Shown: positions 11,713-44,598 of the stretch, piece after piece
Layout of the letters: each line of letters opens with the position of its first letter
Numbering within the stretch: the stretch's first letter is position 1
Source: Tamilnaduibacter salinus
GTDB lineage: Bacteria; Pseudomonadota; Gammaproteobacteria; Pseudomonadales; Oleiphilaceae
DNA: 64,000 nt
Direction of reading: 5' to 3'
NCBI RefSeq assembly: GCF_003096655.1
Contig: NZ_QEKQ01000005.1
Span: forward strand, 62,001 to 126,000
Made by a program: the position numbers and the translations under genes
The notes under the pieces: model-generated
Databases searched by the model: none
The model's input: only the letters and a program-made list of their open reading frames with translations
Told to the model about the DNA's origin: nothing

Positions 11713-11982
11713 CTAGTGTCGCGTCTGGTTAATTCGCTGATCGACTGAGCGCCTGAACGCTTTGAGAGCAAGGCGCGGTAGCGACGGTTTGGTGGTTCCA
11801 AATCGAGCTGCCGCAACACCGCTATCAAAGCGTTCAGGCGCTCCCGGAGGGCGCACCCCCGACGCCTCTGGACCTGCGTTGCCACCCCTTGATGTGGAAC
11901 CACCACACCGGCGGGCTGGCGCCTTGGCCAGAGGCGTCAGAGGTGCGCAGTCGATCAACGAATTAACCAGACGAGACACTAG
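11713..11982. mobile_element. MITE-like structured element with 35-bp terminal inverted repeats
   Basis: The ends 11713-11747 and 11948-11982 are inverted copies matching at 33 of 35 positions (they read CTAGTGTC..GTCTGGTTAA inward). CTAG stands at both outer edges and may be a 4-bp target duplication. Inside are a perfect 19-bp inverted repeat (11747-11765 with 11825-11843), a perfect 11-bp one (11861-11871 with 11928-11938), and loop-to-loop complementarity (11785-11804 with 11891-11910, 18 of 20). There is no transposase gene. The right edge supplies the modC stop codon. A 39-bp piece of the same end recurs at 56859-56897. Confidence 0.75.
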
Positions 11983-13058
11983 GGAAACGCCACGGTCCGG
12001 ATTAACGCCACCACCGTCTGCCCCCGTGCCAGTGCCAGCTCGTCACTCGATTTGCGGGTCAGCCGGGCCCGAAGGGGCTGGTCGCCGATGCGCAGCCGGA
12101 CCTCCACGACCGCCTCCTGACCGGGCAGGGCGGCGATGTCCTCAATGATCGCGGTCAATTGGTTGCGGTAACTCAATTCCATGTGCCGGCGGCGTGCCAG
12201 TGCAACGTCACGAACGGGCACCTTGAGGCGGATGTCGGCACCCACCGCCGCCGACACGCGTGGTACCGTCAGTGCCTGGCCGTCCGCCAGTGTGACCCGA
12301 CTCAGACCGTACGCCTCATCGTGTCCATGCACCCGCCCACGCAGTACTGACAGGGCATTGAACCCGCCCAGTGCGCTGGTGAGGTCAAAGCGCATCAGCA
12401 GATCGTCAAGAGGGCCTTGTGCGCGGACCCGGCCATCCTCCAGCAGCACCAGATGGTCCGCCACGGTTGCCAGTTCATCCGGGTCGTGGCTGATGTGCAG
12501 GATCGGGATGCTCAGCTCTGACGCCACCCGCCGCAGGTACACGAGCAGGTCCGTCCGACGGTTGCCGTCCAGTCCGGTGAGGGGCTCATCCAGCAGCAGG
12601 AGTCTCGGATCGCTCAGCAGGGCCCGGCCGATGGCCACCCGCCGGGCCTCGCCACCGGACAGGGTGGCTGGCAGACGGTCGAGCAGGCCGGTCAGCCCCA
12701 GCAACTCTGACAGCGGCTGCAGCCGTTGCTCCATGTGCCGTGGCATGCCATAGGTCAGGTTGCCGCGTACCCGGTAGTGGGGGAAAAGCCGTGCCTCCTG
12801 GAATACGACGCCCAGATGACGTCGATGCGGCGGTATCCAGCATCGGTCATCCACCAGCACGTCCGGTCCGATTCGAATCGAGCCATGGTCCGGACGGTCC
12901 AGCCCCGCAATCAGGCGAAGCAGGCTGGTCTTGCCGCTGCCGGAGGGGCCGAACAGCGCTGTGACCCCGGTGGCGGGCAACGTCAGGGACGCGTTCAGTT
13001 CAAACTGACCCAGTCGGTGGCGGACATCGACGGTCAGCGGATGGCCGTTATCAGTCAT
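11979..13058 (-). CDS. modC: Molybdate ABC transporter ATP-binding protein ModC
   Basis: ModC drives molybdate uptake through ModB. The ABC core has Walker A FGPSGSGKTS, signature TLSGGEARRVAIGRA and Walker B LLLLDEPLTGLDG; after residue 290 there is a molybdopterin-binding-like (MOP/TOBE) domain, SYRNQLTAIIEDI..VALIRTV. The 359-aa length is normal. Its stop codon TAG lies in the CTAG at the border of the inverted-repeat element, so the last codon or two may have been reset by that insertion. It overlaps modB by 8 bp. Confidence 0.92.
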   Translation of the reverse strand: MTDNGHPLTVDVRHRLGQFELNASLTLPATGVTALFGPSGSGKTSLLRLIAGLDRPDHGSIRIGPDVLVDDRCWIPPHRRHLGVVFQEARLFPHYRVRGNLTYGMPRHMEQRLQPLSELLGLTGLLDRLPATLSGGEARRVAIGRALLSDPRLLLLDEPLTGLDGNRRTDLLVYLRRVASELSIPILHISHDPDELATVADHLVLLEDGRVRAQGPLDDLLMRFDLTSALGGFNALSVLRGRVHGHDEAYGLSRVTLADGQALTVPRVSAAVGADIRLKVPVRDVALARRRHMELSYRNQLTAIIEDIAALPGQEAVVEVRLRIGDQPLRARLTRKSSDELALARGQTVVALIRTVAFP

Positions 13059-13746
13059 CGCGCCCCCTCAGGCGTCGGCGTGCCCGCCGCGCAAGCCATT
13101 CCGATCCGATCAGGGCGGCCATGGCGATCAGCACGGCCAGGACGCACAACCGCGCCGCGGCCTCTTCCGCGCCCGGTGTCTGAATCAGTGTGTACAGCGC
13201 CAGCGGCAGTGTCCGGGTTTCGCCGGGGATGTTGGCTGCGAAGGTGATGGTGGCGCCGAATTCGGACAGGGCCCGGGCAAATGCCAGCATCGTTCCGGTC
13301 AGCAGCCCCGGCAGGATCAGAGGCAGAGTGATGGTCATAAACACCCGCCAACGACCGGCGCCAAGTGTTCGCGCGGCGGCCTCCAGCCCCCGGTCAACGG
13401 ACTCCAGGGACAGTCGGACCGAGCGCACGAGCAGCGGAAAGGCCATAATACCGGCGGCGATGGCTGCGCCCTGCCAGGTGAACGGCAGCTGGATGCCCAG
13501 CGTCTGATCCAGCCACTGACCGATGGCGCCCTGCCGCCCCAGCGCGATCAGCAGCAGGTACCCCACCACAACAGGCGGAAGGACCAGCGGCAAATGGAGC
13601 AGTCCGTCCACCAGTGCCTTGCCTGGGAAGGAGCGACGGGCCATCAGCCAGGCGATGGCCACGCCGGGGATGAGAATCCATCCGACCGCCGTGCCCGCGA
13701 CCCGAAGGCTGATCAGGATGGCGGCCCACTCGACATCAGTCAGCAT
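13051..13746 (-). CDS. modB: Molybdate ABC transporter permease ModB
   Basis: This is the membrane subunit of the molybdate importer. ATG 13746 gives a 231-aa protein (MLTDVEWAAILISLRVAG) of the family's usual size with five to six helices and the ATPase coupling loop LEAAARTLGAGRWRVFMTI; EFGATITFAANIPGETRTLPLALYT is a ModB hallmark. The same frame is open upstream to 14112, but that is inside modA and has no start support. It overlaps modA by 11 bp and modC by 8 bp. Confidence 0.92.
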   Translation of the reverse strand: MLTDVEWAAILISLRVAGTAVGWILIPGVAIAWLMARRSFPGKALVDGLLHLPLVLPPVVVGYLLLIALGRQGAIGQWLDQTLGIQLPFTWQGAAIAAGIMAFPLLVRSVRLSLESVDRGLEAAARTLGAGRWRVFMTITLPLILPGLLTGTMLAFARALSEFGATITFAANIPGETRTLPLALYTLIQTPGAEEAAARLCVLAVLIAMAALIGSEWLARRARRRLRGRDD

Positions 13747-14554
13747 CCTGATCGGGCTCCGTTGACGGCGTGGCAAAACCAAACGAGCGGAAAACTGACA
13801 GCGCGGGCGACGATTGAAGCCACTGGCCAAAGCGCCGTGCCGCCGGAGAGGGCGGGTCGCCGAGGACGGCGATGGGGTACTGGATGGCTGGGTGGCTGGC
13901 GGCGGGCAGTAGGCCGATCCGCCGGACCGCCTCGCTGGCCCGCGCGTCGGTGTCGTACACAATCCCCATCGGGGTATCGCCCCTGGCCACCAGGGCGAGT
14001 GCGGCCCGAACGTTGTCGGCCCGGGCCAGCCGGGGGCGCAGTGCTCGCCATTCGCCCAACGATTCCAGAGATTGTCGGGCATACAGCCCGGCGGGTACAT
14101 GGTCCGGGTCACCCACTGCGAGCCGCTCGCGGGGGCCGAGTCGGTTCTGGATGGATCCGCCCGGACCGGGTGTGAAGGGGGTCAGGGTGGAAGCGGCTGG
14201 TGCGATCAGGGCGAGGCGATTGCCCAGTAGTCGTTGGCGGTCGTGCAGGGTGACAGATTGCCGGGAGAGCCAGTCCATCCACCGAATGTTGGCGGAGAGA
14301 AACAGGTCGGCCGGGGCACCGGCGGCAATCTGGCGGGCGAGGGTGGACGAGGCGGCGAACACGGGGACGACCTCGACGCGGTGGTCCGCCTCATATTGGG
14401 CCGCGACCTCGGTCACAGCGTCGGTCAGCGAGGCGGCGGCATACAGGGTGATTCGTGGGCTCGCGGACAGTGTTGCGGGCAGCAGTAAAAGGCTAAGGAC
14501 TGCCAAAAGGCAACCGCTGCATGTGAAGGCCGTCCTGGAAATCGGGTGCGTCAT
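13736..14554 (-). CDS. modA: Molybdate ABC transporter substrate-binding protein ModA
   Basis: This is the periplasmic molybdate/tungstate receptor. A signal peptide covers about residues 1-31 (hydrophobic LLAVLSLLLLPATLSA), then the ModA opening ITLYAAASLTDAVTEVA, the oxyanion region FAASSTLARQIAAGAPADLFLSA and the closing IQYPIAVL. It has 272 aa. It heads modABC; only 70 bp separate its start from the terminator of the small RNA, so its promoter must be there. I see no convincing ModE box. Confidence 0.9.
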   Translation of the reverse strand: MTHPISRTAFTCSGCLLAVLSLLLLPATLSASPRITLYAAASLTDAVTEVAAQYEADHRVEVVPVFAASSTLARQIAAGAPADLFLSANIRWMDWLSRQSVTLHDRQRLLGNRLALIAPAASTLTPFTPGPGGSIQNRLGPRERLAVGDPDHVPAGLYARQSLESLGEWRALRPRLARADNVRAALALVARGDTPMGIVYDTDARASEAVRRIGLLPAASHPAIQYPIAVLGDPPSPAARRFGQWLQSSPALSVFRSFGFATPSTEPDQDAD

Positions 14555-14624
14555 CGTGTTGCCTGGTTGGGCCGTTACTGACGTTCATCCTTCCACAGCG
14601 ACGTCTCTGGAACAAAACCGATAT

Positions 14625-14654
14625 AAAAAAAAGGGCAACCAATCGGTTGCCCTT
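14625..14654 (-). terminator. Intrinsic terminator of the Csr-type RNA
   Basis: On the minus strand a 10-bp perfect stem AAGGGCAACC/GGTTGCCCTT with loop GATT runs straight into eight T residues (14632-14625). It is a textbook rho-independent terminator, and no protein gene ends just upstream of it, which first drew attention to the RNA. Confidence 0.9.
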
Positions 14655-14853
14655 CGTCGGAACAGTGCCAGCATCCGTGCGGCTGCGGCGTCCAGCCGCG
14701 ACAGTGTCCTCTGCCATCCTGGCGCCAGCTTCCAAGCCAGCGTTTCCCAAGTTCGGTGTCCCTTAAGCGTGACGTCCGTTTACTCCCTGCTTCCCCTCAA
14801 CTCCTGTGAAGGACCACTCCCTGCGTTCGTCCTTTTCCCTGTCATCCAATGAC
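14625..14853 (-). ncRNA. Candidate CsrB/RsmZ-type small RNA that titrates CsrA/RsmA
   Basis: On the minus strand about 200 nt before the terminator contain 15 GGA motifs, several as AGGGA, CAGGA or AAGGA, far above chance. Several sit in hairpin loops: GTCATTGGATGAC (14853-14841, the likely 5' end), GCTTGGAAGC (14737-14728), GCCAGGATGGC (14723-14713) and GCGGCTGGACGCCGC (14699-14685). That is the known design of Csr/Rsm decoy RNAs, which sequester the translational regulator CsrA/RsmA. A -10 TAGAAT, a GacA-like site upstream and a perfect terminator downstream frame it. No convincing protein frame fits the stretch. The start is predicted to within a few bases. Confidence 0.82.
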
Positions 14854-14859
14854 GGTGTC

Positions 14860-14885
14860 ATTCTAACGCGATTGGTGTGGGTCAA
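14860..14885 (-). promoter_or_regulatory. Promoter of the Csr-type RNA
   Basis: On the minus strand TAGAAT (14865-14860) is a good -10, 7 bases before the proposed first nucleotide at 14853. TTGACC (14885-14880) resembles a -35, but the 14-base spacing is short, which fits a promoter that depends on an activator. Confidence 0.5.
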
Positions 14886-15022
14886 TGCTGTGATCATCGT
14901 GGACATGAGAGGAGGGCGTCGGTGGACGCAGTGGATCTGCGCCTGAAATCAGTGATCTGGGAGTGGTTGTGACATCTTTTGAATGAACACGTACCGCACA
15001 AAACGACAATATCTGACATCAG

Positions 15023-15040
15023 TGTAAGATATTTCGCACA
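15023..15040 (-). promoter_or_regulatory. GacA/UvrY-like binding site
   Basis: On the minus strand TGTGCG-AAATAT-CTTACA matches the GacA consensus TGTAAG-N6-CTTACA in spacing and in 10 of 12 defined positions. It lies about 170-185 bp before the proposed RNA start, a distance like that seen for Rsm/Csr RNA genes. It is 17 bp beyond the end of the VanZ-family gene. The remainder of 14886-15022 shows no gene. Confidence 0.55.
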
Positions 15041-15058
15041 TCCGTTATGGCGATAACC

Positions 15059-15421
15059 TCACCGTTTGGGCCAGTGGATCAGGCCGAGGGCGATGCCGGT
15101 CATATCCGCCGCCAGGTCAAGCAATGAAAACTCCCGGTAAGGCAGTGTGGACTGGACGGCCTCTATCAGGGCGCCGTAACCGGTCAGCGACAGGGCAATA
15201 ACCGGCAGAGGCAGCCGGGGCCAGCCCAACCGGGTAAGGATGGTCAGCTCCAGAAAGGCAATCAGGTGGTTCGCCTTGTCCCAGCCGGTCGAGGGCACTG
15301 ACTGGTCCAGGTCGCTGGTGGCCAGCCACAGGATGGCGACGACGGACAACGCCAGTCCAAGGCGCCACAGCCAGTACTGGGCCCGCAGGGTGTGTAGCCA
15401 GACAGGGACGGGTGTTGTCAT
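15059..15421 (-). CDS. VanZ family membrane protein
   Basis: A 120-aa protein with four predicted helices. VanZ-family signatures are present: DKANHLIAFLELT (DK..H...F) near residue 50 and EAVQSTLPYREFSLLDLAADMTGIALG (E..Q...P.R..s..D..aN..G) in the last third. Members are small membrane proteins of mostly unknown function; the founder gives low-level teicoplanin resistance. It is divergent from cysZ with 154 bp between them. Confidence 0.8.
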   Translation of the reverse strand: MTTPVPVWLHTLRAQYWLWRLGLALSVVAILWLATSDLDQSVPSTGWDKANHLIAFLELTILTRLGWPRLPLPVIALSLTGYGALIEAVQSTLPYREFSLLDLAADMTGIALGLIHWPKR

Positions 15422-43074: not shown

Positions 43075-44598
43075 ATGACATCATCCAGGACAGGGTCGCT
43101 GTCCCTGCGTTTCAATCTGCTGGCGGTCTCGCTGATCACCGTCCTGCTGGTCATCAGTGGATTCGTGGACTACCGGCTGAGTTCCAGCCAGTGGCGTGCG
43201 TCAGTCGACAGTCAGGTGTCCGACCAGGCGGGCTTCCTGTCGTTGTCCCTGCCGGACGCGCTCTGGAACTTCCAGTCCGAGACGGTCCGGAAAATCCTGC
43301 GTTCGGTTGTGAACAGCCGGGTTATCGAGGCCGCCTATATTCTTGAAGAGGGCGACCTGACCTATGCGATGCGTCAGGACGGCGATGAGATCCGTCCTGT
43401 TGAGGAGATGCCCGAAACAACCGGTATGACGGACATCCCACTCAATCATGATGAAGCCGACGAGACCATCGGCACGGTGTTCATCGACAAGAACGATGCC
43501 TACCTGTCCGAGCGTCTGAGCAGCGTCACCAATCTGGCGATTGCGCGAACGCTTGTTCTCGGCCTGGCATTGGCGATGATCCTGTACGTGTTGTTGCTGC
43601 TGCTGGTAAAGCGACCAATTGTCACGCTCCGGGAGGCCATGGCCGATATGGCTCAGGGGGAGGGGGATCTGACCCGGCGTCTGTCGGTGGACCAGAACAA
43701 CGAAATTGGCGAGCTGGTCAGCTACTTCAACGAATTCATGGCGAAGCTGCAGACGTCCATGCAGGCCGTCGGCTCGGTGGCCGAGCGGGCGGGAGCGGCC
43801 GTGAGCAGTCTGGAGTCGGCCTTTGAAAGAAGCCGATCCCTGGTTTCCGACCAGGAGCAGGAGGTGGAGTCCATCACCGCCGCCGTGACCGAAAGTTCGA
43901 CGGCCAGTCAGGAAGTCGCCCAGAACGCCCTGTCCACATCCGGGGCGGCGTCGGATGCCCAGCAGAATGCGGAAAACAGTCGCGATGCGATGGACGGTAC
44001 GGTTCACAAGATCCAGTCGCTGGCGGCGCAGATCGAGAGCACATCCCGTGCCATGGCCGGTCTGCAGGAGGAAGTGGACAGCATTGGAGAGATCATGACC
44101 GTGATCAGTGGCGTCGCCGATCAGACCAACCTGCTGGCACTGAATGCCGCCATTGAGGCCGCGCGGGCCGGAGAACACGGGCGTGGTTTTGCGGTGGTTG
44201 CCGATGAGGTTCGCACGCTGGCGGCCCGCACTCAGGAGAGCACCCAGGAAATCGGCGAGAAGATTGAGCGGCTCAAGGCCAGCGCCAGTGACGGGGTTTC
44301 AGTCGCACAGCAGGCCAGAAGCCTGAGCGAGGACAGCGTCGCGAGCGTCGGTGAGGCCCAGAACAGTCTATCCGTTGTCTTCGACGCCATCCGTCAGATC
44401 AATGACATGTCCACGCAGATTGCGACGGCGGTGGAAGAGCAATCCCAGGTCAGTCATGAGATCAGTCAGAATCTGCATCGGCTGTCAGATCTGTCCCAGC
44501 AATCCAGTGAACAGGTGGATCAGGCCTCAGAGACCAGTGCCGAGGTCGGCGAACAGACGCGGGCGCTGAACACCCAGCTCGCCGGATTCCGTTACTGA
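43075..44598 (+). CDS. Methyl-accepting chemotaxis protein
   Basis: A 507-aa chemoreceptor. One helix at about 12-32, a periplasmic domain of roughly 125 residues, a second helix near 155-180, HAMP ([20 protein letters not shown]), then the signalling coiled coil with the hairpin tip [20 protein letters not shown], which contacts CheA and CheW. There is no C-terminal pentapeptide tether. It follows the binding-protein gene by 61 bp; the pair may form one sensory unit. Confidence 0.9.

Follow-up and report, generated by a model that had tools for sequence, protein, structure and literature searches.

A predicted CsrB/RsmZ-type small RNA gene downstream of a conserved GacA/UvrY-type box in Tamilnaduibacter salinus and the family of Marinobacter

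A GGA-rich locus on the minus strand

We analysed a 64,000-nucleotide stretch of the Tamilnaduibacter salinus genome, called here the window. On its minus strand, between a VanZ-like gene upstream and genes for a ModA-like binding protein and an ABC ATPase downstream, lies a sequence of 229 nt (14853-14625) that starts with GTCATTGGATGACAGGG, ends with CCCTTTTTTTT and carries 15 GGA motifs, 10 of them in the form A(N)GGA. The features of the locus, given in the order of transcription, are as follows.

15059..15421, minus strand: VanZ-like gene (Pfam VanZ), upstream neighbour, not part of the RNA
15023..15040, minus strand: GacA/UvrY-type inverted repeat TGTGCGAAATATCTTACA, 18 bp, differing from TGTRRG-N6-CYYACA at one position; its centre lies 178 nt before the RNA 5′ end
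15010..15018, minus strand: incomplete half-site TGTCAGATA, 4 bp downstream of the box, assigned from the alignment and by resemblance to E. coli csrB
14860..14865, minus strand: probable -10 element TAGAAT, assigned from the alignment and from 38 loci compared over the 22 nt that precede the RNA
14625..14853, minus strand: predicted small RNA of about 229 nt with 15 GGA, from GGA counts, shuffles and covariance model R1; 5′ end from the alignment
14841..14853, minus strand: 5′ hairpin GTC..GGA..GAC (helix 1), from consensus and local folds; paired in 98.3% of cells, nearly invariant
14793..14813, minus strand: hairpin with AGGA loop (helix 2), covarying, with two-sided changes in 4 of 7 pairs; 90.7% of cells paired
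14765..14792, minus strand: AAGC...GCUU stem around a large loop that holds two GGA, then an invariant AGGGA (helix 3); 100% of cells paired
14723..14742, minus strand: hairpin with UGGA loop (helix 4), also in the local fold; two-sided changes in 3 of 6 pairs, 95% of cells paired
14625..14655, minus strand: intrinsic terminator with eight T; 11-bp stem at 14655-14630, folding z -5.69 for 14660-14625

An earlier reading made from the letters alone (hereafter the sequence-only reading) had counted 15 GGA motifs over about 200 nt of this strand, and the count is upheld for 14853-14625. Such a number is rare. In 5000 dinucleotide-preserving shuffles of the 229-nt stretch, GGA occurred 8.8 times on average and at least 15 times in 0.14% of cases, and the corresponding figures for A(N)GGA were a mean of 3.3 and at least 10 occurrences in 0.02%. 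When both strands of the 64-kb window were scanned, 14853-14625 was the sole cluster with at least 14 GGA per 229 nt.

Predicted fold of the RNA

The RNA as a whole folds moderately better than its shuffles (z -1.83; 9 of 200 shuffles at least as good). Local folding places GGA-bearing hairpins at 14853-14841, 14813-14793 and 14742-14723, with one more directly after the last; folded singly, these hairpins have z values of -0.52 to -2.44 against shuffles and are not exceptional. The sequence-only reading had described four GGA motifs in perfect small hairpin loops, including one at the very 5′ end. The hairpins are found as described; their perfection is not, since the 5′ loop in T. salinus is UGG, with the A of the GGA paired, and the stem of the 14813-14793 hairpin is bulged. 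The terminator that it had reported was recovered as the 11-bp stem listed above, with the eight T after CCC.

Pairing was then counted over 20 aligned sequences, in which 95% of cells are paired. As the structure used had itself been derived from these aligned sequences, the count is biased in its favour; with this bias, two-sided changes are seen in 16 cells, against a shuffled mean of 6.0 (none of 500 shuffles as high, all slid versions lower), and seven pairs have such a change, where shuffles average 3.2 and come as high in 2 of 500 cases (slid versions again lower). One of the five measures, further pair types, gives no excess (18 compared to 17.5 in shuffles, with 257 of 500 as high). 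Because it is nearly invariant, helix 3 is without covariation support. Across 17 aligned sequences, two-sided changes preserve the terminator stem.

Searches with known RNA families

The sequence-only reading had proposed that ordinary annotation may miss the RNA and had suggested a search with Rfam models. This search was run, and the proposal proved right: all 4227 families of Rfam 15 gave no match at threshold over the whole window, and none at threshold was obtained in the loci of 11 relatives. The CsrB, CsrC and PrrB_RsmZ models all stayed below their thresholds. CsrB (RF00018, cut-off 71 bits) had no match in the window or in the T. salinus genome, and in 2 of 6 relatives' loci it scored below threshold (23.9 bits; E 0.0034 and 0.0035), which hints at kinship or at shared GGA hairpins. 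PrrB_RsmZ (RF00166, cut-off 44 bits) exceeded its cut-off in none of 38 genomes, with weak matches in four (25.5-28.9 bits) and none in T. salinus. CsrC (RF00084) remained below its gathering threshold, with 7.7 bits on the terminator only.

With E values up to 10 accepted on 14400-15100, the other matches were DapZ (19.6 bits), Xoo2 (14 bits) and sR43 (11 bits), as well as MicX (15.2 bits) and ST7-AS2_2 (12.7 bits) on the plus strand; all are far below threshold and were rejected, as was CsrC. The weak DapZ, Xoo2 and CsrC scores rest mainly on the terminator hairpin. A TwoAYGGAY match in one relative's locus (L036; 30.6 bits for a cut-off of 43) was disregarded, being on the opposite strand.

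Distribution of the RNA among relatives

A covariance model, R1, was built from the 5′ part of the RNA with 20 sequences, the window included, and comprises 133 positions. Its match to the T. salinus copy (E 4.3e-31) is thus to one of its own model sequences. Family, order and class were searched with strict filters, under which weak matches are lost. Within the family, R1 matches 114 of 121 sampled genomes, Marinobacter, Halospina and Halovibrio among them, and the seven unmatched genomes are from genera g2 and g3. The order sample (n=293) gave 16 matches, 13 in Marinobacter's family and three weak ones outside it (24.0-26.3 bits); the latter, none of which reaches an Rfam threshold, were not counted as homologues. 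In the class sample (n=369), with the same strict filters, only the T. salinus genome was matched. A nucleotide search of 38 genomes found a match in 12, T. salinus included, all of one family.

A pattern of the conserved core retrieved 15 named stretches: seven from Marinobacter, one each from Halospina, Halovibrio and Mangrovitalea, and five others, filed as Vreelandella utahensis (two), Halomonas sp., Halomonadaceae or Gammaproteobacteria. In 11 of the 15, the first 110 nt of the RNA are identical to a genome of Marinobacter's family. This identity extends to stretches filed under Vreelandella utahensis, Halomonas sp. and Halomonadaceae (L015, L023, L016, L027), so their public names may mislead.

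For closer comparison we used 38 loci, 30 from the family R1 search and eight from the order search; this set, which includes the window's own locus, consists mainly of top-scoring loci. The sequence-only reading had made its case depend on relatives keeping the GGA motifs or the terminator, and both are kept. With a shift of up to 2 nt allowed in the alignment, 13 of the 15 GGA sites are present in at least 35 of the 38 sequences, the remaining two in 31 and 11, and those at 14786, 14777 and 14761 in all 38. Control trinucleotides away from GGA (n=121) agree on average in 13.9 of 38 sequences, and 13 of the 121 reach 34, so the GGA sites are better conserved than the sequence that separates them. 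Some of the agreement is expected by chance, because GGA is frequent in these RNAs. A T-run, scored as such whatever its hairpin, lies 150-450 nt past the RNA 5′ end in 38 of 38 loci, in addition to the terminator stem kept in the 17-sequence alignment.

In one metagenome-assembled relative (G005:C7:6738-7241; L018 from 6738 onwards, L140:500-1300), the RNA appears to take the form of four tandem modules about 125 nt apart. They give four R1 matches, and the repeat copies are 75-86% alike to their reference. This is perhaps a Csr sponge enlarged through internal duplication.

A GacA/UvrY-type box at a conserved distance

Upstream of the RNA, at 15040-15023, lies the 18-bp inverted repeat that resembles a GacA/UvrY site. 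The sequence-only reading, which covered 14625-14853, ended short of this box and did not include it. Between -230 and -150, a box with at most one mismatch is found in 37 of 38 loci; no such box occurs in any of the 38 in the control stretches -330 to -250 and -150 to -70. With two mismatches allowed, all 38 loci have one between -230 and -150, compared to three and one in the control stretches, and shuffled stretches contain a box in 12 of 7600 cases. The best box is centred between -176 and -180 in 37 loci and at -201 in one. Since the pattern was chosen after a first alignment of the relatives, and the loci are mainly best-scoring ones that include the window, these figures are descriptive and do not amount to a blind test.

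The box by itself means little in the T. salinus genome, since 47 box-like sites with one mismatch occur there, none of them perfect, against 58 for a reversed control pattern; its weight comes from its conserved place and not from its occurrence. Among the 47 sites, 15040-15023 has the densest GGA cluster behind it, with 13 per 150 nt when scanned from 40 nt on (the next has 10), and likewise 15 per 200 nt at 100-300 nt past each site (the next has 11); one of the 94 site-orientations could be scanned in part only. We rate the conserved putative box at 15040-15023 as the strongest single piece of evidence for a Csr-type RNA at this locus.

Its arrangement is like that of E. coli csrB, where the UvrY repeat TGTGAGAGATCTCTTACA is centred at -183/-182, against about -178 here, and is followed 5 bp downstream by TGTAGGAGA, according to the accessible portion of PMC4682653. 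The partial half-site just downstream of the box in T. salinus is replaced in several relatives by TGTAGGAAA or GTAAGAAA. A generic sigma-70 scan found no promoter upstream of the RNA. The probable -10 element reads TATAGT in many relatives, and there is no good -35 element before the RNA, as is expected of an activator-dependent promoter.

Neighbouring genes and alternative readings

Gene content within 1.5 kb of the RNA varies over the 38 loci: a SelU-like gene is present in 36, VanZ in 31, CysZ in 31 and a methyltransferase in 29, and ModA and ModB stand beside the RNA in T. salinus only. The mod genes thus look like a later arrival. In the window, the ModA-like and ABC transporter genes (11979-14554) lie between the RNA and the methyltransferase and SelU-like genes.

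Because its neighbours vary in this way, the RNA is not a leader of the mod genes, nor is it just the tail of VanZ. The leader reading would make the region a molybdate- or Moco-responsive riboswitch or attenuator of a modABC operon, with its terminator about 70 nt before modA, and it draws on the fact that region and terminator share the strand of the ModA gene and immediately precede it. However, neither a riboswitch nor any other Rfam family matches in the window, and elsewhere box and RNA persist without ModA; in 29 of the 38 loci a homologue of the window's methyltransferase gene is found there instead, within 1.5 kb. As ModA lies by the RNA in just one locus of the 38, that of T. salinus, this reading was rejected; it is already largely refuted, and we leave it a very small probability. 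Much the same slight weight goes to the idea that the VanZ mRNA supplies the RNA, as its 3′ untranslated region or a processed tail, with no independent gene. The shared strand and the frequency of VanZ nearby fit such a tail, yet the RNA occurs in 7 of 38 loci without a detectable VanZ beside it, on which ground the tail was rejected, and the stretch that separates VanZ from the RNA holds a promoter-like element and the distal GacA box.

A GacA-controlled RNA might also act mainly through base-pairing, or encode a small peptide, and not sequester CsrA. There are precedents, as some GacA-controlled sRNAs are no CsrA sponges, and Pseudomonas RgsA has one GGA according to the available part of PMC2375449; the locus described here, however, has 15 GGA sites, 13 of them strongly conserved. 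As for a peptide, the longest frames range from 20-odd to 120-odd codons over the 38 RNA copies, no frame being of constant length, and they begin at differing places in the nine copies compared. The peptide was rejected because a constant frame is missing. We consider base-pairing or a peptide very improbable as the main mode of action, and sequestration of CsrA remains the preferred reading.

A second candidate Csr RNA in the same genome

The scan of box-like sites pointed to a second candidate Csr sRNA in the T. salinus genome, outside the window, at about 43787-44011 of contig G000:C6.

L098:663-962 (G000:C6:43712-44011): second candidate including its box, from box, GGA hairpins and terminator

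Its box-like site, CGTAAGCTTTTTCCTACA, lies at 43712-43729 of the same contig. The candidate has five hairpins with GGA in the loop and a terminator, and its folding z is -3.79, with none of 200 shuffles as good. We take the gene downstream to be comEA-like, a name given from its helix-hairpin-helix sequence. In two relatives' loci (L130 and L141) a box, its centre some 65 nt ahead of the model match, is followed by a GGA-rich stretch and by the same comEA-like gene. R1 matches these two loci weakly (28.0 and 25.2 bits), and the T. salinus candidate is not among the R1 matches in its genome, so the second RNA is either distant from the first or a separate family. Rfam gave nothing at threshold on the second-candidate loci, with CsrB at 22.4 bits in L141.

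GGA-rich RNAs with a GacA box about 62-65 nt upstream of the model match were seen at L130:1380-1720, L141:525-890 and L034:1430. Two promoter layouts thus occur in one lineage, with the box at about 62-65 nt versus about 178 nt for the main RNA. Five further second-locus matches (L134, L135, L136, L138, L139) have no box with up to two mismatches followed by at least 8 GGA per 150 nt, and L133 has a two-mismatch site followed by 10 GGA per 150 nt. In another relative, a perfect GacA-type site with 9 GGA per 150 nt lies near weak R1 and PrrB_RsmZ matches (L137; G018:C1:2276000-2277400) and is a candidate for a further Csr RNA.

Protein partners and proposed mechanism

The T. salinus genome encodes the partners that such an RNA would need: one CsrA match over cut-off, a GacA/UvrY orthologue (300.6 bits, cut-off 280) and a BarA-family kinase that scores just under its cut-off (854 bits for 890) and covers positions 2-911 of 920. 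GacA does not reach its cut-off in 4 of the 5 R1-negative family genomes tested (genera g2 and g3). A link between absence of the RNA and absence of GacA is only suggestive, because one genome (G013, 88% complete) has the RNA and no GacA match over cut-off.

The locus thus has the traits by which CsrA-sequestering sRNAs are recognized: judged by sequence only, a stand-alone non-coding gene with an intrinsic terminator; numerous GGA and A(N)GGA motifs, some of which sit in hairpin loops; a predicted GacA/UvrY site far upstream of the promoter; and csrA and gacA/uvrY in the same genome. The architecture of RNAs that sequester CsrA/RsmA, claimed by the sequence-only reading, is supported by the GGA motifs and terminator kept in relatives, the GacA/UvrY box, and the csrA, gacA and barA/gacS-like genes. 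We conclude that the minus strand 14853-14625 is very probably, at roughly 0.94, the gene for a CsrA-sequestering small RNA of the CsrB/RsmZ type, and the features compared give high confidence in assigning it to this functional class.

What we infer of its transcription, GacA binding, CsrA binding and phenotype is as follows. A BarA/GacS-type kinase would phosphorylate the GacA orthologue, which would then bind the 18-bp inverted repeat, some 178 bp upstream, so as to switch on a promoter that is weak by itself. An untranslated RNA of roughly 229 nt would be made, up to the terminator, and several CsrA dimers would bind to its GGA sites, which lie partly in hairpin loops and partly in single-stranded stretches, so that the mRNA targets of CsrA are freed. 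The sequence-only reading had gone further and proposed a master switch between motile and sessile life, in a genome with many c-di-GMP enzymes. The enzymes are there, with 45 GGDEF matches over cut-off; that this RNA is the one master switch is not supported. It is probably not the only Csr RNA, given the second candidate elsewhere in the genome.

Comparison with known systems and significance

CsrB ends in an intrinsic terminator, as does the RNA at 14853-14625. Many GGA sites are likewise common to CsrB of E. coli and Salmonella and to this RNA, whereas the CsrB model spans 356 positions against 229 nt here, and CsrB has 22 GGA, as stated in the accessible text of PMC7652899, against 15 here. 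Pseudomonas RsmZ/PrrB is similar in being a GacA-controlled RsmA/CsrA sponge that has several GGA and, upstream, a palindromic activating sequence (PMC2375449, in the part available); it differs in its model of 133 positions, compared to 229 nt, and in its family threshold, which is reached in none of the 38 genomes. The Csr sRNAs Pf1-Pf3 of Pseudoalteromonas fuliginea, all three from one genome, were also found through GGA motifs, a putative promoter and a terminator, but were taken to the bench, whereas the present RNA is known from its sequence and is likened to them by description (PMC11882849, as excerpted).

The CsrB/RsmZ kind is well known, and the RNA at 14853-14625 appears new as a member of it. 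Prediction of CsrA-regulating sRNAs was reportedly the subject of a study in 2006. A machine-learning prediction paper lists other species in its accessible part (PMC5568370). Among the open-licence papers listed on CsrA, GacA, RsmZ or sRNAs in Marinobacter, or on csrB in Halomonas, none deals with such an RNA in its title or abstract.

A wider proposal would make this RNA the type member of a Csr sRNA family that is unrecorded and specific to its lineage, paired with a second uncatalogued Csr sRNA upstream of the comEA-like gene, and would add terminator read-through that puts molybdate uptake under Gac control. Taken as a whole it is unlikely. Both the unrecorded family and its pairing with a second uncatalogued Csr sRNA are well supported by sequence; read-through past the RNA terminator into modABC, which in this lineage has come to stand right behind the RNA gene, with Gac control of molybdate uptake, is speculation.

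Current covariance models can miss a Csr RNA carried by most of a sampled family, and the RNA family described here could enter Rfam. Marinobacter and related marine bacteria are known for degrading oil and for their love of salt. One oil-spill study discusses the upregulation of CsrA in a Marinobacter (PMC10516948, in the portion available). The RNA makes CsrA control in Marinobacter's family directly testable and, if our reading is true, a conserved, GacA-boxed sponge RNA would be the output of the Gac system in this family.
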